From assembly GCF_003967195.1 (NCBI RefSeq), contig NZ_AP018725.1:1-64000 (forward strand): a stretch of DNA of 64,000 nucleotides, in the 5' to 3' direction. Both the position numbers and the translations under genes were made by a program. This DNA comes from Sulfuriflexus mobilis. Its GTDB lineage: Bacteria > Pseudomonadota > Gammaproteobacteria > AKS1. Positions 27,788-61,718 of the stretch are shown in pieces; positions within the stretch are counted from its first letter, which is position 1, and every line of letters starts with the position of its first letter. The notes beneath the pieces were generated by a model. The model did not search any database, was not told the origin of the DNA, and worked only from the letters and a program-made list of their open reading frames with translations.

Positions 27788-29794
27788 TTATTTGGCAATT
27801 GTCAATTCTGACGGGTCAATAGCTATATTCAATTCATTCGACTTATCGGGGCTGTCATCATTCAAAATAGTTTCTATATCCTTTCGTTTGTCTTCGGCTT
27901 GTCGTGTTTGGATAGAAAGCGCAAGATTGCGTGCCCCAGCTTCATTGCCTTGGCTTAGGCGCAATGCCATGGTTAGTTTTAGATATGGTGTAATATTTTG
28001 TCTAGGTAAATAGGTTTGTATTAGGCCCTGTTCCAGCACCTCAAGTGCCTCGTTTTCCCTGTTCTCAGCCAGCAATAGTTGTGCCAGTAAGTAACGGACT
28101 TTGTAAAGACGTGGATTGAGATAAAGCGCGTGTCGGTAGGCGTTACTGGCAAGTCTCAAGTAGTCTTTTCCGGTAAATTCCGGGTAAGATGAATATAAAT
28201 GGCCACGGACGTGATATTGATATGTTCTAAGCGGGTTGATGGTCTCTGCTTTATCAAGTAGTTGTAGTGCCTCATTGTACAAGGCCATTCTCTTTTCTAC
28301 AGCAGACTCAGGCCAGGTATGTATAGAGTCAATAAGAAGGCTGGCGTGTGATACGAGCGAGGCATTAGTAGCGTTTAACCGTTTTGCTAAGGTAAAGCTC
28401 TTGTCGGCAGCCTCGAATTGTTTCTGCTGGTATTCCTTTATTGCACGACGGTAGTAGTGTTGGTGTGCCCAGTCTGAGGCGAGCAATATCAATGCAATAA
28501 GGCTGATGATAATAATCAGCAGGCGTATTAAAGATGGTTTTATATATAGCTCTGGTCGTATATAAATATATGAGTTGGAATCTTTAATGCAAAGCTGATT
28601 TAAGCGCCCAAGAAACAAACCTGCAAGAACAAGAATAGAGAGAATATATAAGTTAAAGGTAAAAAAACTATGCAAGGCAACACTTAGCAGGCCACAAAAT
28701 AAGCCACTTATTTCTAGGCGTGTTGGTAGGTCAATTGATCGCCGTAATGTTCCTCGAAAGGTGGTGATTGTGCTGATAAGCAATGCGATCAGAATTAGCA
28801 GGCCGAGTAGGCCCATCTCGAGCCAAATCTGTAGATAGTCATTATGTACATATTTTCCGCCACTGATTTCTTCCGGCAAGCGGTATTGTGGGTATAGCAA
28901 TGAAAACATACCTGGCCCATGTCCAAGCCAAGGTGACTCCTTAATGATGCTCCAGCTTGCTTGCCAAATGTATAAGCGGTCAAGACCAGCGGAGCCGAGA
29001 TCACTAAGTGTTAATAGTCGGCCAATAAGACCACCTTCAGTTTGTATATTGGCCAGTAGCAGGGCAACTAGTAGTATAAAAAGCAAGCTGAACCAGATGC
29101 CTTTATCAAGCCGGCGGTAAATGAGAATGCCCAGTAATGATTGACCAGCAAAAAGAGCGGCCAAGGCACCACGGCTTTGTGTTATGCCTACTGCGTAGGC
29201 CATCATGAATATCGAAGCCCCGAGCATTATTTGAATAACAGGATGTAGTCTCTGTTGCCTAAGGCTTAGAAACGTTGCACTAGCTGTAAGGAGAACCAGA
29301 TTGAGCAGGGCTGCGAGTGTATTTCGAGTATAAAAGACAGAGGCACTACCAGAGTTATCATGGAATGTTGCACCAGAAATTAGCTCATAGGTATAGTGAA
29401 GTGAGAGCCCTGTAGCAATGGCAACAACAAGCGCCAGGATAAGATTCCACCGCTGTTTTTTGATGTCGGCAAGCTGGAAAAGGAAAAAAGCCGCCGGCAA
29501 CATACCAATTAACCAGGCTGTATACTTGTTGTATATAGGAATTGAGCCAAGTGGAATAGAGAGTATTAGGTATAACCAGAATAGTGCAGTAGCCACGGCC
29601 AGACTGTTACGTGGTAGTTTTATACCAGGCTTTGCAGAACTCCAAAAAATATAGGCAGCGAGTAGCACAAATGAGGCCTGGGCAAAAACCAGGTAGCCGA
29701 TGTGCACGCCGTGATAAAAGACGGCAGCTAACCAGGCGCTGCCCAATAAAATAGTGGGCAATAGACTAAGCAGACGGCTAACAGTGGCTGTCAT
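27788..29794 (-). CDS. O-antigen ligase / PglL-like membrane protein with TPR-like C-terminus (copy 2)
   Basis: This is a 668-residue paralogue of the other ligase-like gene in this locus. The shared signature is GHGPGMFSLLYPQYRL, then VHNDYLQIWLEMGLLGLL. About 11-12 TM segments occupy the first 440 residues; the helical C-terminal region reads like TPR repeats (AADKSFTLAKRLNATNASL, NENEALEVLEQGLI-like). It lies directly downstream of the major pilin across a strong hairpin. It is probably an O-oligosaccharyltransferase acting on periplasmic glycan-lipid and the adjacent pilins. A Wzy polymerase or an O-antigen ligase is the alternative. Composition is moderately AT-rich. Confidence 0.78.
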   Translation of the reverse strand: MTATVSRLLSLLPTILLGSAWLAAVFYHGVHIGYLVFAQASFVLLAAYIFWSSAKPGIKLPRNSLAVATALFWLYLILSIPLGSIPIYNKYTAWLIGMLPAAFFLFQLADIKKQRWNLILALVVAIATGLSLHYTYELISGATFHDNSGSASVFYTRNTLAALLNLVLLTASATFLSLRQQRLHPVIQIMLGASIFMMAYAVGITQSRGALAALFAGQSLLGILIYRRLDKGIWFSLLFILLVALLLANIQTEGGLIGRLLTLSDLGSAGLDRLYIWQASWSIIKESPWLGHGPGMFSLLYPQYRLPEEISGGKYVHNDYLQIWLEMGLLGLLILIALLISTITTFRGTLRRSIDLPTRLEISGLFCGLLSVALHSFFTFNLYILSILVLAGLFLGRLNQLCIKDSNSYIYIRPELYIKPSLIRLLIIIISLIALILLASDWAHQHYYRRAIKEYQQKQFEAADKSFTLAKRLNATNASLVSHASLLIDSIHTWPESAVEKRMALYNEALQLLDKAETINPLRTYQYHVRGHLYSSYPEFTGKDYLRLASNAYRHALYLNPRLYKVRYLLAQLLLAENRENEALEVLEQGLIQTYLPRQNITPYLKLTMALRLSQGNEAGARNLALSIQTRQAEDKRKDIETILNDDSPDKSNELNIAIDPSELTIAK

Positions 29795-51146: not shown

Positions 51147-52481
51147 TTAGAGTATATAACGGCTCATGTCTTCGTCACCGGCCAGTTCACCAAGGTGTTC
51201 GTCGACATAGCCACCATCAATGGTGATGCTTTCGCCAGGCTTGTCGCAGGCCTCGAAGGAGATGGTTTCCAGCAGGCGCTCCATGACCGTGTGCAGGCGG
51301 CGGGCACCGATGTTCTCGGTGGTTTCGTTGACCTGGAAGGCCATCTCGGCGATACGCGCGATGCCGTCGTCGGTGAAATGCAGCGTCACCGACTCGGTCT
51401 GCATCAGGGCGATGTACTGCTCAGTGAGCGAGGCATCCGGTTCGGTAAGGATGCGCACGAATTCTTCAGCGCCGAGGGAGTCGAGTTCGACACGGATCGG
51501 CAGGCGGCCCTGCAATTCCGGGATCAGGTCGGAGGGCTTGGTCAGGTGGAAGGCACCCGAGGCGATAAACAGGATGTGGTCGGTCTTGACCATGCCGTAC
51601 TTGGTGGAGACGGTGCAGCCTTCGACCAGGGGCAGCAGGTCGCGTTGCACACCCTCGCGGGAGACATCCGGGCTGCTGCTGTGGCCGCGTTTGGCGATCT
51701 TGTCCATTTCATCGAGGAACACGATGCCGTTTTGCTCGACCGCCTCCATGGCACGGGCCTTGAGGCTGTCTTCATCGACCAGCCGTGCGGCCTCTTCCTC
51801 GATGAGGATCTTGAGGGCGTCAGACACGGCGAGTTTCTTGGTCTTGGTACGCGTGTTGCCCATGTTCTGGAACATGTCCTGCAGCTGCGAGGTCATTTCC
51901 TCCATGCCGGGCGGGGCCATGATCTCGACGCCGACACTGCTGGCGCGGGTCTCAATCTCGACTTCTTTGTCATCGAGTTTGCCCTCGCGCAGCATCTTGC
52001 GGAATTTCTGCCGGGTCTCGTTAGTGTCCTTTTCGGCGTCATCAATACCGCGCGGGGGTGGCAGCAATAGGTCGAGGATCTTGTCCTCGGCGGCGTCCTC
52101 GGCTCGATGACGGACCTTGTGGGTTTCCTGCTCACGGAACATTTTCATTGCGAGGTCTGCAAGATCGCGGATAATCGACTCCACATCGCGTCCAACATAG
52201 CCGACTTCGGTGAATTTGGTCGCTTCAACCTTCATAAACGGTGCATTCGCCAGTTTGGCAAGGCGGCGGGCGATCTCGGTCTTGCCGACCCCGGTCGGGC
52301 CGATCATGAGGATGTTCTTCGGCGTGATCTCGTTGCGCAGGCTGTCTTCAACCTGCATGCGGCGCCAGCGGTTGCGCAGGGCAATGGCTACGGCGCGTTT
52401 GGCGGCGGCCTGGCCGATGATGTGCTTGTCGAGTTCCTGCACGATCTCGCGCGGGGTCATGGATTGAGTGGTATCAGGCAT
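51147..52481 (-). CDS. hslU: HslU (ClpY) AAA+ unfoldase
   Basis: HslU is a hexameric ATPase that unfolds substrates for the HslV peptidase. The 444-residue protein has [17 protein letters not shown], Walker [14 protein letters not shown] (61-73), the pore loop GYVGRDVES, the intermediate I-domain (about 110-240), Walker [11 protein letters not shown] and the C-terminal YIL tail that inserts into HslV. It starts 20 nt after hslV. Confidence 0.98.
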
Positions 52482-55775: not shown

Positions 55776-57029
55776 TTAATCGGGCAACAGATGTTCGCCC
55801 CTGGTGAGGTCGGCGAGGCTTTCTCGCTCACGGATCACATGCACCTTGTCGGCATCGATCATGACCTCGGCGGCGCGCGGTCGTGAGTTGTAATTCGAAC
55901 TCATGCTAAAGCCATAGGCACCGGAAGAGCGTACCGCGAGCAGGTCGCCTTGCTGCAGGGCCAGCAGACGCTGTTTGCCGAGGAAGTCTCCGGTCTCACA
56001 GACCGGGCCGACGATGTCATACATCTGCGCCATCGGTGCCGGCCGTGGGCAGACAGCATCTATAGCCTGCCAGGCACCATACAACGAGGGTCGCATCAGG
56101 TCGTTCATGGCCGCATCGACAATGGCAAAGTTACGTTCATCGCCGTGTTTGAGGAACTCGACCCGGGTCAGCAGCACACCGGCATTGCCGACAATGGCCC
56201 GGCCCGGTTCAATAATGATTTCCTGCGGGCGGTTGCCGAGTACCTCTGTAATCGTCCTGGCATAGTCAGCCGGGCTCGGCGGGGTCTCGTTGGCATAACA
56301 AATACCGACACCGCCACCGATGTCGATGTGCTGCAGGCTGATGCCACCTGCGGCGAGTGTGTCGACCAGCGTCAGGGTGCGGGCCAGCGCCTCGGCAAAC
56401 GGCGACAGCTCGGTCAGTTGCGAGCCGATATGGCAGTCAATACCGTGGATCTGGAGGTGTTCCAGTTCGGCGGCACGGGCATAGGCATCGGCGGCCTTTT
56501 CAATGGGAATACCGAACTTGTTCTCTTTCAGGCCGGTGGAAATATACGGGTGCGTGCCGGCATCGATGTCCGGGTTGACGCGTAGCGAGACGGGCGCGGT
56601 CTTGCCGACTCGCCCGGCAACCTGGTTGATACGCTCCAGTTCTGCTTCGGATTCGACATTGAAACAGCGAATACCCACCTCGAGTGCACGGGCGATCTCG
56701 TCCGGGCGCTTGCCGACGCCGGAGAAGACCACGCGGGAGGCATCACCGCCAGCGGCGAGTACACGCTCAAGCTCGCCGACCGAGACGATGTCAAAGCCCG
56801 AGCCAAGGCGGGCGAGGATGTTCAGCACCGCGAGGTTAGAGTTGGCCTTGACCGCGTAGCAGACCAGGTGGGCGCGCCCGGCAAAGGCCGCATCAAAGGC
56901 GCGCCACTGGCTCTCGATGGCCGCGCGCGAGTAGACATAACACGGGGTGCCACACTGCGCGGCGACCGCCTCCAGCGAAACAGCCTCGGCGTGCAGCACC
57001 TTGTCTGCATAGGCAAAAAAGTCAGTCAT
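55776..57029 (-). CDS. lysA: Diaminopimelate decarboxylase
   Basis: LysA is a PLP enzyme making lysine from meso-diaminopimelate. The 417-residue protein has the PLP lysine K61 in CYAVKANSN, the HIDIGGGVG glycine loop, IIEPGRAIVGNAG, and CETGDFLGK-type substrate residues (VGPVCETGDFLG). It starts 9 nt after the LptM-like lipoprotein gene. Confidence 0.97.
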   Translation of the reverse strand: MTDFFAYADKVLHAEAVSLEAVAAQCGTPCYVYSRAAIESQWRAFDAAFAGRAHLVCYAVKANSNLAVLNILARLGSGFDIVSVGELERVLAAGGDASRVVFSGVGKRPDEIARALEVGIRCFNVESEAELERINQVAGRVGKTAPVSLRVNPDIDAGTHPYISTGLKENKFGIPIEKAADAYARAAELEHLQIHGIDCHIGSQLTELSPFAEALARTLTLVDTLAAGGISLQHIDIGGGVGICYANETPPSPADYARTITEVLGNRPQEIIIEPGRAIVGNAGVLLTRVEFLKHGDERNFAIVDAAMNDLMRPSLYGAWQAIDAVCPRPAPMAQMYDIVGPVCETGDFLGKQRLLALQQGDLLAVRSSGAYGFSMSSNYNSRPRAAEVMIDADKVHVIRERESLADLTRGEHLLPD

Positions 57030-57300: not shown

Positions 57301-59232
57301 TTGCAGTTAAGGACCCATATATTCCTGCGTGTCGCCCTGGCCATCCTCCTGCCGATGACCTTGCTGGTCTTTGCCGCGACCTATTACAGCGAGCAACGCT
57401 ACCGGCAGGAGGTCGAGGCCGGGCTGAACGGCAGCCTGAACACGATCATCGCCGAGATCGACCGTCGCCTGGTCTATGAGCGTGAGACCTTCCGCGCCCT
57501 GGTGAATGCACCGGTCTTTGAACAGTACCTGCCGGTTATGCACGATGCCAACGAGGGGCGCTTGCACGCCGAGTTCTTTGCCCGCACGGAACAGATCAAC
57601 GGTTTTCTCGAAACCTTTCAGCAGATCGTGCCTTCACTACATACCCTGCGCATCCTCGATTCGCAGGCCAATACCCTGGTTAAGGTGCGCTACGGTCAGC
57701 GTAGTCCGGCACTGTTCGATGGTATCGAGAGCTTTCCCCTCGCAGAGGAAGAGATCGATGATGAGGAATACCTGGAACGGCTTTATACATTACCGAATAA
57801 CGAGATCGGCGTCACCTTGTTAACCCAATCACGACTCGAACAGGAAGAGGACGGTAGCCTGCCGATGCTTGATTACATCATGCCGATTGCCCGTGATGGC
57901 GAGTTTCTTGGTTATGTCGTGGTGAACATACTTGGTGACCAGATTGATCGCATACTTGACCTGGCACCACGACCCAATAAAGGTCAGTTAATGATCGCGG
58001 AGATCAATCCCGAGGATCGGGACCGTAATGGTGTGATCCTTTATGACGATGCAGCTAAGTTACGATTTGTTGACGTAAAGTCACAGCAACGTCGCCTGCA
58101 GGATCTGTTTGCCGGCCAGCTTTATGATGCGGTACAGGAGTTTCCCTATGGCAGAATCAAGACCAGCCAGGGGCAGGAAGAAATCTATTACATCGAGTAC
58201 TTGCCCTACCCGGACCTGCTGGTGCACTGGGTTGTGGCCTTGCGCATCGACAGCCAGGCGATTAGCGCACCCTTTGATCGTTTTCGTATTGCGATTGCAA
58301 CTTTTGCCTTTATCGGCGTGCTGGTGAGCTTGTGGCTGGCCGGCATAACAGCGGGGCGGATCGCGAGGCCGATTACCCGGCTTGCACAAACCTTAAAGAA
58401 TTATGCTAACGGTGATAACAAGGCACGTAGTCGGCAAACGGGTAGTGATGAAGTGCAGCAGCTGGCAGAATCATTTAATTATATGGCCGACACACTTGAT
58501 CGTGCCGCTGCAGATCGTGATCAGGCACAACATATTATGTTGCAACAGGCCAAGCTGGCGAGTATTGGGCAGATGGCGGCGGGCATTGGACATGAGCTGA
58601 ATAATCCGCTGAATAACATTTTGACGATTAGTAAATTACTTGAACGCGACAATAAAGATAAGGATCCGGGTTTGCATCAGGATATCGAATCCCTGCGTGA
58701 TGAAACACTTCGCGCCTCGGAGATCGTCAAGGGCGTGCTCAACTTTGCCCGCCAGGTGCCACCGCAATTTTCATGTTTCAGTATTCGGGAATGGCTGAAA
58801 AATACCGTGTCCCTGGTTCAGCAGCAGGCCAGATCACAACATATTAATCTGTATATAGACTGTGAAAATGATTTGAATATTACCGGTGACCGTGCACAGT
58901 TACAGCAGGTGCTGATTAATCTGCTATTAAACGCTATACAGGCCAGCGAAAGAGGTGCGAAAATTATAATCGAGACAGAGGTTTCTGATAAGAAATGTGT
59001 GGTAAGCGTAAAAGATGAGGGTGACGGTATCGCTGAAGAGGATCTGGAAAAAGTTTTTGACCCGTTCTTTACCCGCAAAGTGGTGGGTGAGGGTAATGGT
59101 CTTGGTCTATCGATAAGCCTTGGCATCATGGAACAGCATGGGGGTAGTCTTGATATTGTTAATAACTTGGACAAAGGGGTGACAGCAAGCATGCGCCTGC
59201 CAATAGAGTGTTGCGAGGTGGAACATGGCTGA
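57301..59232 (+). CDS. Membrane sensor histidine kinase, partner of the sigma-54 regulator
   Basis: This 643-residue kinase has TM1 (8-27), a large periplasmic sensor (about 30-325, Cache-like alternating alpha/beta; PMLDYIMPIARDGEFLGYVVV resembles a PAS/Cache strand pair), TM2 (329-350), HAMP (350-405), a DHp domain with H431 in GIGHELNNPLNNI and a HATPase (DEGDGIAEEDLEKVFDPFF, GNGLGLSIS). The TTG start follows AAGG by 6 nt. Its stop overlaps the response regulator by 8 nt. The ligand is unknown; adjacency to soxYZ suggests a sulfur-compound or redox signal. No cysteine pair stands out in the sensor. Confidence 0.9.
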   Translation: MQLRTHIFLRVALAILLPMTLLVFAATYYSEQRYRQEVEAGLNGSLNTIIAEIDRRLVYERETFRALVNAPVFEQYLPVMHDANEGRLHAEFFARTEQINGFLETFQQIVPSLHTLRILDSQANTLVKVRYGQRSPALFDGIESFPLAEEEIDDEEYLERLYTLPNNEIGVTLLTQSRLEQEEDGSLPMLDYIMPIARDGEFLGYVVVNILGDQIDRILDLAPRPNKGQLMIAEINPEDRDRNGVILYDDAAKLRFVDVKSQQRRLQDLFAGQLYDAVQEFPYGRIKTSQGQEEIYYIEYLPYPDLLVHWVVALRIDSQAISAPFDRFRIAIATFAFIGVLVSLWLAGITAGRIARPITRLAQTLKNYANGDNKARSRQTGSDEVQQLAESFNYMADTLDRAAADRDQAQHIMLQQAKLASIGQMAAGIGHELNNPLNNILTISKLLERDNKDKDPGLHQDIESLRDETLRASEIVKGVLNFARQVPPQFSCFSIREWLKNTVSLVQQQARSQHINLYIDCENDLNITGDRAQLQQVLINLLLNAIQASERGAKIIIETEVSDKKCVVSVKDEGDGIAEEDLEKVFDPFFTRKVVGEGNGLGLSISLGIMEQHGGSLDIVNNLDKGVTASMRLPIECCEVEHG

Positions 59233-60577
59233 AAAAGAAAAAAGGCCATTGATACTCTTTATTGATGATGACGTGCGCGCCGGCGAACTCATGCAACGCT
59301 TTATGGCAGATTCGCCATACCGTTGTGAAGTCTTTCAGAATCCGGACTTTGCGATCGAATATTTTAACGAGCACGGCGCAGACCTGATCATTACCGATCT
59401 GCGTATGCCGGGCATGACCGGTATGGAAGTGCTGGCCGAGGTCAAGTCACAGAATGCCGATACGCCGGTGATAATAATCACAGCATTTTCGACGGTGGAT
59501 AATGCGATTGAGGCCATGCGTCTGGGGGCCACAGATTTTATTAAAAAGCCCTATGACATGGATGAATTATTTGTCTTGATTAACAAGACACTTCAGCATC
59601 ATCATCTCGAACAGGAAAATCTGTTACTCAAACGTCAGCTTAGTGACGAAAAAAACCGTTATGGCATGATCGGCCATAGCCAGGCCATGCAGGATGTCTA
59701 TGCCCTGATTGAAAAAATCGCCGACATTCGTTGTAACGTAATCATTGAGGGTGAGTCGGGCTGTGGCAAGGAACTGGCCGCGCGTGCCATCCATTACCAA
59801 AGTCGCGATGCGGAAAAACCCTTTATCGTCATTGACTGTGGTTCACTGTCAGACACCCTGCTCGAGTCTGAGTTGTTTGGCCATGAAAAGGGTGCCTTTA
59901 CCGGCGCCACGCAAAGCAAGCCGGGTATGCTGGAAATGGCTTCGGGCGGAACCGTGTTCCTTGATGAAATCTGTAATATTTCCGACGCCATGCAAACCAA
60001 ACTCATGCGCGTAGTCCAGGAACAAACCCTGCAACGTGTCGGTGGGGTAAAGCCAATTCAAATCGATGTGCGTTTTCTTGTCGCTACCAACCGCAACCTC
60101 GAGGAGATGGTGGCACAGCAACGCTTTCGGCATGACCTTTATCACCGCCTCAATGTGGTGAAACTGCGCCTACCGTCATTGCGTGAACGGCGTGATGATA
60201 TCCCCGAGTTAATCCAGCATTTTGTCGAGCACTTCGCCGAACGCTTCCAGCGTGAGGTAAGAGGCTTTGATGCCGCCTCGGTGCAACAGTTATGCGAGTA
60301 CGATTGGCCGGGTAATGTACGCGAGTTGCGTAATCTCGTGGAACGTCATGTGGCCTTGGCCGATGGCCCGGAGTTGCATCTCGAGAGCCTGCCGGTCATG
60401 CCGCGGGGCGAGGCGATTGATAGTGATAACCCGACACTCGAGGAACTGGAGCAGCGTTATATCCTCAAGCTACTCGATAAGTTTGACGGTAACCGGGAAA
60501 AGACCGCGGCCGCGCTAGGGGTCAACAAGTCGACGTTGTGGCGGCGCCTGCAACAATACCAGGCCGTGGGTGAGTAA
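59225..60577 (+). CDS. NtrC-class sigma-54-dependent response regulator
   Basis: The 450-residue activator has a receiver domain (D58 in IITDLRMPG; K in FIKKPYD), a linker, an AAA+ domain with Walker A GESGCGKE (176-183) and sigma-54 loop GAFTGA (223-228), and a C-terminal Fis-type HTH (NREKTAAALGVNKSTLWRR). The DNA-binding tail differs from NtrC in this window, so it should recognise other sites. A sigma-54 promoter and TTGCA-type palindromes lie between it and soxY, making soxYZ the obvious candidate target. Confidence 0.93.
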   Translation: MAEKEKRPLILFIDDDVRAGELMQRFMADSPYRCEVFQNPDFAIEYFNEHGADLIITDLRMPGMTGMEVLAEVKSQNADTPVIIITAFSTVDNAIEAMRLGATDFIKKPYDMDELFVLINKTLQHHHLEQENLLLKRQLSDEKNRYGMIGHSQAMQDVYALIEKIADIRCNVIIEGESGCGKELAARAIHYQSRDAEKPFIVIDCGSLSDTLLESELFGHEKGAFTGATQSKPGMLEMASGGTVFLDEICNISDAMQTKLMRVVQEQTLQRVGGVKPIQIDVRFLVATNRNLEEMVAQQRFRHDLYHRLNVVKLRLPSLRERRDDIPELIQHFVEHFAERFQREVRGFDAASVQQLCEYDWPGNVRELRNLVERHVALADGPELHLESLPVMPRGEAIDSDNPTLEELEQRYILKLLDKFDGNREKTAAALGVNKSTLWRRLQQYQAVGE

Positions 60578-60602
60578 AGCAGAGACCGGGAAAAACTAAA
60601 AT

Positions 60603-60630
60603 TGCAATGCGGGGATTGCATATTGCAATC
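60603..60630. promoter_or_regulatory. Candidate enhancer palindromes upstream of soxYZ
   Basis: GATTGCATATTGCAATC (60614-60630) is a dyad with 7-bp perfect arms and a 3-bp centre. Just before it, TGCAAT and ATTGCA (60603-60620) form a second dyad with a 6-bp gap that shares one arm. Their centres lie about 110-120 bp upstream of the predicted sigma-54 start, the usual enhancer distance. Confidence 0.6.
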
Positions 60631-60704
60631 TGCAACGGGTAGAATTAACGAATATATCATCAGTAAAATCACTATCTATATGATTATTAAGTGAATAATA
60701 AAGT

Positions 60705-60720
60705 TGGTACGCGAATTGCG
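60705..60720 (+). promoter_or_regulatory. Sigma-54 promoter of soxYZ
   Basis: TGGTACGCGAATTGCG fits TGGCACG-N4-TTGC with GG and GC exactly 10 nt apart; only position 4 (T for C) and the last base differ. Transcription would begin near 60731, 33 nt before the soxY ATG, leaving room for the AGGAG ribosome-binding site. Confidence 0.78.
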
Positions 60721-60763
60721 ATAGAGTAAGTGAGAGCAAATTTTATTTTAGGAGTTATAAGCG

Positions 60764-61234
60764 ATGATTGAATCACGTCGTACATTTTTAAAAGGCAGTA
60801 TGGCCGGCAGTGCCATTGCTGTGGCAGTGGGCGCAGGCCTGCTGACCCCGCAAAGCGTCCTCGCGGCCTGGCCGAAAGAGGCCTTTGAAGCCAAGGGCGT
60901 GGATAACGCCATGAGCACCCTGTTCGGCAGCAAAGATTCAGCCGCCAGCAAGGACATCAAGATCAAGGCCCCGGACATTGCCGAAAACGGCGCCGTGGTC
61001 CCGGTCAGCATCACCGCCGCGCAGTCCGGCATCGAAAGCATCTCCATCCTGGCGGCGGCCAACGCCTCGCCACTGTGTGCGAGCTTCGACATGGGCGCCA
61101 ACGCCGAAGGCTATGTCTCCACCCGCATCAAGATGGGCAAGACCTCCAAGGTCATCGCCGTCGTCAAGGCCGGTGGCAAAGTCTACAGCGCCAGCAAAGA
61201 CGTCAAGGTCACCATCGGCGGCTGCGGCGGCTAA
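60764..61234 (+). CDS. soxY: Sulfur-carrier protein SoxY
   Basis: SoxY is the periplasmic subunit that carries sulfur intermediates covalently during thiosulfate oxidation. The Tat signal is explicit (SRRTFLK, 4-10, then a hydrophobic region ending SVLA|A). The C-terminus ends GGCGG with carrier cysteine C154 on the swinging arm, the SoxY hallmark. A second cysteine lies in ASPLCASF. At 156 residues it is the usual size. SoxZ follows after 29 nt. soxABX are not in the window, as in organisms with separate soxYZ. Confidence 0.97.
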   Translation: MIESRRTFLKGSMAGSAIAVAVGAGLLTPQSVLAAWPKEAFEAKGVDNAMSTLFGSKDSAASKDIKIKAPDIAENGAVVPVSITAAQSGIESISILAAANASPLCASFDMGANAEGYVSTRIKMGKTSKVIAVVKAGGKVYSASKDVKVTIGGCGG

Positions 61235-61263
61235 GGCAAACAGGAATTTAAGAGGAAACTATC

Positions 61264-61578
61264 ATGGCAAAAGGTATCAAAATCCGCGCCACGGCAAAGA
61301 AAGACTCCACCACGGTCAAGGCCCTGATGAGTCATCCGATGGACACGGGTCTGCGTAAAGACAAAAAAACTGGCAAGGTGATCCCCGCGCACTTCATTCA
61401 AGAAGTGAAGTGTGAGCACAACGGCAACGCCGTGCTGACCGCCCTGTGGGGTCCGGCGATCTCGAAGAACCCGTACCTGTCGTTCAAGTTCAAGGGCGGC
61501 AACAAGGGTGACAGCATCAAGATCAGCTGGGTCGACAACAAGGGTGAAAGTGCTTCCCAGGAAGCTCAGATCCGTTAA
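61264..61578 (+). CDS. soxZ: Sulfur-carrier partner SoxZ
   Basis: SoxZ is the 104-residue immunoglobulin-like partner of SoxY; the SoxYZ heterodimer is exported together by SoxY's Tat signal, so SoxZ has no signal of its own. The family pattern is visible in VKALMSHPMDTGLRKDK, FIQEVKCEHNG, GPAISKNPYLSFKFKGG and ISWVDNKGES. It has one cysteine (EVKCEH). Strong terminator downstream. Confidence 0.97.
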   Translation: MAKGIKIRATAKKDSTTVKALMSHPMDTGLRKDKKTGKVIPAHFIQEVKCEHNGNAVLTALWGPAISKNPYLSFKFKGGNKGDSIKISWVDNKGESASQEAQIR

Positions 61579-61598
61579 GTATTGCTTGTTTTACCCGT

Positions 61599-61628
61599 AA
61601 AAAAGGCCGCCTTGTGCGGCCTTTTTTT
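61599..61628 (+). terminator. Rho-independent terminator of soxYZ
   Basis: AAAAGGCCGC and GCGGCCTTTT form a 10-bp perfect stem around a CTTGT loop, followed by a T-run, about 20 nt after the soxZ stop. Confidence 0.92.
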
Positions 61629-61718
61629 ATGAAAAAAATATACCGCAAAGGATGATGCATCAGGGCTCGGGGTGTACTACTTGACTACGCGTAAAAGAAA
61701 ATACGCTACACTCTGCAA

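Follow-up and report, generated by a model that had tools for sequence, protein, structure and literature searches.

Predicted sigma-54 control of a separate soxYZ unit by an adjacent two-component system in Sulfuriflexus mobilis and its relatives

The expression of a separate soxYZ unit in Sulfuriflexus mobilis is very probably controlled by a sigma-54 promoter and by the kinase-activator pair encoded directly upstream of it. Such control had been proposed in a first-pass annotation of the same DNA, and it finds strong support in the synteny of the genes, in the conservation of promoter, enhancer and spacing, and in the co-occurrence of the regulator with its putative site. The parts themselves, their conservation, this co-occurrence and the existence of two soxYZ copies are established at the level of sequence, while the activation that connects them is predicted. 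The genome of S. mobilis is complete and consists of one contig of 3,111,340 bp. The window, which is the whole stretch of 64,000 nucleotides that was analysed, comprises its bases 1-64000. The locus begins with a divergent lysA, followed by the kinase, the NtrC-class activator, a gap of 186 nt, soxY, soxZ and a hairpin with a T-run, behind which an esterase-like gene is located. The features of the locus are the following:

55776-57029, minus strand: lysA, the divergent neighbour of the kinase, from the list of open reading frames
57301-59232, plus strand: membrane histidine kinase with a predicted dCache sensor, HAMP, HisKA and HATPase_c
59225-60577, plus strand: NtrC-class response regulator (the activator) with a receiver, a sigma-54 AAA+ domain with GAFTGA and a Fis-type HTH
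60602-60635, plus strand: predicted enhancer, composed of the half-site TTGCAAT and two overlapping dyads and kept in relatives
60602-60608, plus strand: half-site TTGCAAT, from the sequence
60616-60628, plus strand: dyad TTGCATATTGCAA, an exact TTGCA-N3-TGCAA
60623-60635, plus strand: dyad TTGCAATCTGCAA, an exact TTGCA-N3-TGCAA
60673-60685, plus strand: weak IHF-like site (7/9), 32 nt 5′ of the -24 element
60705-60720, plus strand: predicted sigma-54 promoter TGGTACGCGAATTGCG, with the start expected near 60731
60764-61234, plus strand: soxY (TIGR04488, 177.4 bits against a cut-off of 125), with a Tat signal and a C-terminal GGCGG
61264-61578, plus strand: soxZ (TIGR04490, 145.8 bits against a cut-off of 76)
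61596-61631, plus strand: hairpin with a T-run 3′ of soxZ (-19.3 kcal/mol, z -4.7), absent from the terminator-scan list

The membrane kinase and the NtrC-class activator with an intact GAFTGA, which the first-pass annotation had placed upstream of soxYZ, are borne out by the reading frames, the domains and the motif. The two reading frames overlap by 8 nt, and the activator contains the receiver, the sigma-54 AAA+ domain, the Fis HTH and the unbroken GAFTGA by which its class is recognised. Both soxY and soxZ score above the cut-offs of the curated models that define genuine SoxY and SoxZ, and the hairpin behind soxZ is likely a terminator, which makes soxYZ a two-gene unit. The -24/-12 element is found as it had been described: in TGGTACGCGAATTGCG the GG at 60706-60707 and the GC at 60718-60719 are separated by 10 nt, in agreement with the pattern TGGYAYNNNNNTTGC. 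The TTGCA dyads, said to lie about 110 bp upstream of the start, are exact, and their centres are located about 102-109 nt 5′ of the predicted soxY start (near 60731). The genome also encodes rpoN (PF00309, E 9.4e-18).

The weight of these elements depends on how often they occur by chance. A match to the -24/-12 element alone is rejected as proof, as the window holds 25 matches with at most one mismatch against 19.65 expected, three of the 25 being exact. Two other exact matches to TGGYAYNNNNNTTGC are present in the window, at 28072-28086 on the minus strand and at 51845-51859 on the plus strand. The exact dyad alone is rejected as well, because it is not rare: it occurs at three places in 3.11 Mb, two of them at this locus, against two for the reversed control. 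The same applies to the dyad with one mismatch, which matches 82 times in forward orientation genome-wide and 40 times as the reversed control, and only twice in the window against 3.76 expected. The combination of a dyad and a sigma-54 element 53-82 nt apart is found genome-wide only here, as two overlapping hits, and is absent from the reversed control; in six size-matched Markov genomes its occurrences numbered 0, 0, 0, 0, 1 and 0. A looser form of this pattern with shorter gaps is met at one place in the genome against two in its control. Two overlapping exact dyads at the position of the soxY promoter are rare, and the observation at the locus as a whole is well beyond chance.

The arrangement of the genes is conserved in relatives. 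The search covered 369 genomes of the class and found a close activator in 53, where an activator-positive genome is defined by a match at E <= 1e-120 and the sister (DsrE) group is included. The activator loci were examined in 46 of the 53, all outside the DsrE group, and in 34 of these 46 genomes the gene that directly follows the activator is soxY or SoxY-like. Of the kinase-regulator-soxYZ order, named in the first-pass annotation as a point to check, the step from activator to soxY is thereby seen in most of the loci examined. In 11 of the 46 loci soxY is not next to the activator, one of them (G070) being on a contig that ends 391 nt further on, and in one more locus the contig stops at the activator. 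The SoxY-like genes of G149 and G260 are placed next to the activator from their coordinates. Among the 34, the contig end falls inside soxY in 12, four of which were recognised by eye on just their opening codons. Such contig ends would be expected if a near-identical soxYZ is located elsewhere in the genome. A match to lysA is present beside the kinase in 21 of the 29 loci L068-L097 and in 11 of the 13 loci L132-L144, two sets with overlapping genomes, and in none of the four loci of the DsrE group.

The second line of evidence comes from the regions upstream of soxY. The test was applied to 92 distinct regions and asked for an exact dyad 50-85 nt 5′ of a -24/-12 element. The full site is present at 30 of 65 soxY genes from activator-positive genomes and at none of 27 from activator-negative ones, with 0.02 and 0.005 sites expected from shuffles, in a sample of chosen loci, some of them taken for adjoining the activator, and of genomes that are not independent. 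Six of the regions (L273-L278) were included because the genome-wide pattern matched there, three of them being also found as SoxY hits; without the six, the counts are 24 of 59 and 0 of 27. The 92 regions leave out soxY matches that start after query residue 45, have less than 120 nt upstream or show a last 80 nt that recurs within the same genome, and the contigs L043, L049, L056 and L060, which end too soon after the soxY start and in which dyads and a -24/-12 element are visible by eye. Permitting one mismatch in the dyad adds seven sites among the 65, which gives 37 sites and leaves 28 soxY genes of activator-positive genomes with none. The 30 strict sites span 15 families, as counted from the rows.

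The same dyad, which the first-pass annotation had suggested looking for at other sox loci, thus recurs there, and it does so with a narrow spacing. The gap between dyad and -24 element measures 64-66 nt in 22 of the 37 sites (24 when ties are broken toward a gap of 65). The spacer contains an IHF-like match of at least 8/9 in 22 of the 37 sites against 2.5 expected from single-letter shuffles, and in the other orientation in 5 against 2.5. These matches (8-9/9) are always located 29-32 nt 5′ of the -24 element. The site in the window is atypical in both respects, with a gap of 70 instead of the usual 65-66 and an IHF-like match of 7/9 only. The dyad and sigma-54 pattern anywhere in the genome is found in 36 of 53 activator-positive genomes against 73 of 316 others (Fisher p 4e-10), and its reversed control in 12 of 369 genomes. 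Such a genome-wide pattern alone proves little, because those 73 activator-free genomes hold it too.

The site is not confined to soxY genes directly behind the activator. Eleven of the 30 strict sites, six of them pattern-chosen, belong to soxY genes in other positions: one is a gene away (G101), three are beside a sister-type activator and the rest are located elsewhere. The clearest case is Thiohalophilus thiocyanatoxydans: its activator, at 374 kb, lacks an adjacent soxY, and on the same contig a soxY at 301 kb, 73 kb away, carries the full site. In three genomes of the same genus as the window, the activator-proximal soxYZ has dyads and no recognisable -12 element; in two of these genomes a full site, with one dyad mismatch, precedes the soxYZ that comes next, and in the third the contig ends. 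Two tandem soxY(Z) follow the activator in the same-genus loci L132 and L134, and the second of them best matches the window copy, which points to the loss of the first pair in the window lineage or its gain in the others. SoxY-like genes in two same-genus genomes (L104, 1644-2132, and L103) are also preceded by a dyad and a -24/-12 element. For the protein of L104 the Pfam search result agrees, and on the basis of these upstream elements the two genes are possible further targets.

The genome of S. mobilis carries a second soxYZ, within the canonical sox cluster:

L064 3264-7387 (contig about 796,263-800,386): soxX-soxY-soxZ-soxA-soxB cluster, with soxYZ nearly identical to the window copy

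The SoxZ proteins of the two copies are 100% identical, and all differences between the SoxY proteins fall in residues 1-18. The nucleotide identity of the copies is 96-100% at about nt 50-800, 72% over the initial 50 nt and 43% in the region upstream. Such high identity of the coding part and low identity upstream indicate a recent duplication or gene conversion in which each copy kept its own promoter, and the upstream test used above finds no sigma-54 site at the canonical copy. As the mature carrier is identical in both copies, the switch would raise the amount of SoxYZ and make no different carrier, which suggests that the regulated copy serves the dosage control of SoxYZ. The accessible part of PMC11237559 offers dosage as the reason for a near-identical soxY pair in Sedimenticola. 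Similar near-identical pairs are found in G092, in one pair of G127 and in G037, which is without this activator. Identity is patchy between the copies in G130 and in G022, and divergence is seen in the G210 pair and in the third G127 copy. An extra copy for dosage is not a general rule, since the single-contig genomes G270 and G363 show one soxY, and this sole soxY carries the site.

Alternatively, the regulated copy could have a role outside thiosulfate oxidation, for instance in delivering sulfane sulfur, sulfite or the sulfur of pyrite. In favour of this, the window soxYZ is uncoupled from soxXAB, and in Allochromatium vinosum grown on pyrite soxYZ is up 5-fold with the other sox genes unchanged, according to the available text of PMC11267869. 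However, identical SoxZ and identical SoxY after residue 18 mean that the regulated copy cannot have a private chemistry, which leaves a separate process doubtful, if still a serious alternative to dosage control.

The activator tree describes how the system is related to others. In it, the window activator is a member of a 56-row clade (support 100/99), which is composed of a soxY group and a group of four. The split between the two is moderately supported (87/72 and 93/82; in a smaller tree 81/80 and 86/79). One of the four sister activators is a paralogue from the genome of S. mobilis itself:

L062 2488-6523 (contig about 1,329,487-1,333,522): paralogous kinase and activator genes, with a DsrE-like protein encoded next

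This paralogous activator is 51-52% identical to the window activator. The dyad-like site TTGCAAAATGCAC and a -24/-12-like element precede its DsrE-like gene, with the dyad farther from the -24 element. Eleven sister loci were compared, namely the four tree members and seven sister-type activators (46-54% identical) outside the tree. A DsrE-family gene (PF02635) is next after the activator in all 11, ten of them above the curated cut-off and L098 just under it, and SoxB (TIGR04486) comes next in two. An exact TGCA-N3-TGCA dyad lies between the activator and the DsrE gene in ten of the 11 loci, L282 being the one without. The recognition helices of the soxY and DsrE groups are alike, their commonest letters being NKSTLWRKLQ and DKTTLWRKLK. 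A soxY with a dyad and a -24/-12 element is located beside a DsrE-sister-type activator in G038 (L101, L028) and, by coordinates, in G127 (contig 2) and G336 (contig 11). No other close activator was found in the genome of G038, which suggests that the sister activators share the site code. The chances are about even that these loci represent an undescribed sigma-54 regulon of gammaproteobacterial sulfur oxidisers, made up of two sister two-component systems with one TTGCA dyad code. One system would switch a separate SoxYZ unit, and its sister would act on a DsrE-like secreted protein and, in some cases, on SoxB; in several genomes the switched soxYZ copy would be near-identical to the main one, with the dose of the carrier set apart from the other Sox proteins.

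Several known systems resemble the predicted one. SoxR is an ArsR-type repressor of sox clusters. Its sulfur-responsive control of sox genes (PMC10451225, available in part) would be shared with the window system in the response to sulfur, and differs in acting by repression instead of sigma-54 activation. The first-pass annotation knew of no circuit like the proposed one, a statement that does not hold for the type of control: the accessible parts of PMC6335251 and PMC12194929 describe sigma-54 two-component control of sox by TspS/TspR in Acidithiobacillus caldus, with the enhancer TGTCCCAAATGGGACA. Both systems have a sigma-54 kinase/NtrC-class pair directly 5′ of sox, an enhancer dyad and a -24/-12 promoter, and this common logic raises the question of whether the window holds the TspS/TspR-sox circuit of Acidithiobacillus in another genus.

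Such identity is unlikely. The comparison used a TspR-like sequence from locus L099 of G029, picked by the exact published enhancer and the soxX-soxY-soxZ order. This activator falls outside the 56-row window clade (100/99), and the AU test rejects a tree in which it joins the soxY group (p 4e-5). A tree that has it as the nearest outgroup of the whole window clade is not rejected (AU p 0.21), and long branches make its position unsure. It is 41% identical to the window activator and has a different recognition helix (SRKQLRTKMK), and G029 also possesses a member of the window clade, beside a DsrE-like gene. The enhancers differ too, TGTCCCAAATGGGACA having no match with up to three mismatches in the window activator locus (L032), where the dyad is TTGCA-N3-TGCAA. 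The target of the TspR-like locus is a cluster with soxX as the first gene, whereas the genes next to the window activator are soxY and soxZ alone, before the hairpin and the esterase-like gene. The differences in activator clade, helix, enhancer and target indicate that the window system works like TspSR-sox and is not orthologous to the copy tested; the window system as TspSR is rejected. The TspR-like activator itself has AAFTGA where GAFTGA is usual.

The genes of the predicted system have also been noticed side by side in other bacteria. In Thioalkalivibrio (Tgr7_0038-0041) a sigma-54 regulator, a histidine kinase, soxY and a diaminopimelate decarboxylase adjoin (PMC6382920), and in symbionts of the Thiohalomonadales a sigma-54 regulator, a histidine kinase and soxY do so (PMC11237559). 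In the accessible parts of both papers they are named as neighbours only, and no promoter, enhancer or circuit is given. The primary paper on TspS/TspR, Li et al. 2017, speaks in its title of 'some chemolithotrophic bacteria', and these may include relatives of the window clade.

The sigma-54 element could also be a relic, most soxYZ transcripts then coming from the operon of kinase and activator or starting at a sigma-70 promoter. No plus-strand terminator is listed by the scan in the stretch from activator to soxY, and the same-genus activator-proximal copies are without a clear -12, both of which would agree with such transcription. On the other side, the promoter scan lists no plus-strand sigma-70-like site in the activator-soxY gap, and the -24/-12 element recurs with its narrow spacing in many families, so that a relic is improbable. 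It is less probable still that the dyads serve another activator, such as NtrC, whose half-sites the TGCA half-sites of the window resemble, and that the adjacent pair has other targets. Nine strong sigma-54 activator domains are present in the genome, the window's included, but ownership of the dyads by a common activator such as NtrC is rejected, since all 27 soxY genes tested from genomes that lack this activator family are without the site; besides, soxY or a SoxY-like gene follows the activator in 34 of 46 loci.

The preferred reading, sigma-54 control by the adjacent pair, raises the question of the signal. The AlphaFold model of the sensor (the first 350 residues of the kinase) has a mean pLDDT of 81.5, and its best Foldseek matches (best E 6.4e-10) are to dCache-type domains found in kinases and chemoreceptors. 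The Pfam model dCache_1 matches the kinase at E 1.1e-06 and 28.8 bits, under its curated cut-off of 45. The periplasmic domain of the kinase is thus predicted to have a dCache fold. DctB structures are among the Foldseek matches, and DctD is the sigma-54 activator partner of DctB. The DctB/DctD system therefore combines the same type of periplasmic sensor with a sigma-54 activator and differs from the window pair in gene context and target. The sensor stretch of the window contains no cysteine, as read from its sequence, and this absence, together with the modelled dCache fold, makes a small-molecule ligand likelier than thiol redox sensing. The first-pass annotation had considered a sulfur compound or the redox state as the signal; the thiol redox part of this suggestion becomes less likely. 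The ligand of the kinase is likely a small molecule and, judged from the target genes only, would be a sulfur compound.

In the proposed mechanism, the kinase would respond to a small periplasmic molecule, probably a reduced sulfur compound or its oxidation product, and would phosphorylate the activator. The activator would then bind the TTGCA dyads about 100 nt 5′ of the soxY start, and DNA bending at the IHF-like site would bring it to the sigma-54 polymerase at 60705-60720. Its ATPase with GAFTGA would open the promoter, leading to the transcription of soxYZ as a two-gene unit. The output would be more SoxYZ, made from a second copy that encodes an identical mature carrier.

Sigma-54 two-component control of sox is, as a kind, already known from the published parts of the TspSR work cited above. 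What appears to be new, with respect to the literature searched, is the activator clade, the enhancer code, the isolated carrier as target and the sister DsrE system; in the accessible text of that literature no description of a soxYZ promoter or of the dyads was found outside Acidithiobacillus. As read from the genome sequences, the activator pair beside a separate soxYZ recurs across many bacterial families. Extracellular sulfur sensing and the level of the Sox carrier are poorly known outside the SoxR-type repressors and the TspSR of Acidithiobacillus. At this locus the conserved site, the regulator that is likely cognate to it and the target are all open to test, as both Sulfuriflexus mobilis and Thiohalophilus thiocyanatoxydans are cultured, and the dyad gives a way to find further targets. 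The separate control of soxYZ may explain how SoxYZ can respond without the rest of the Sox system.
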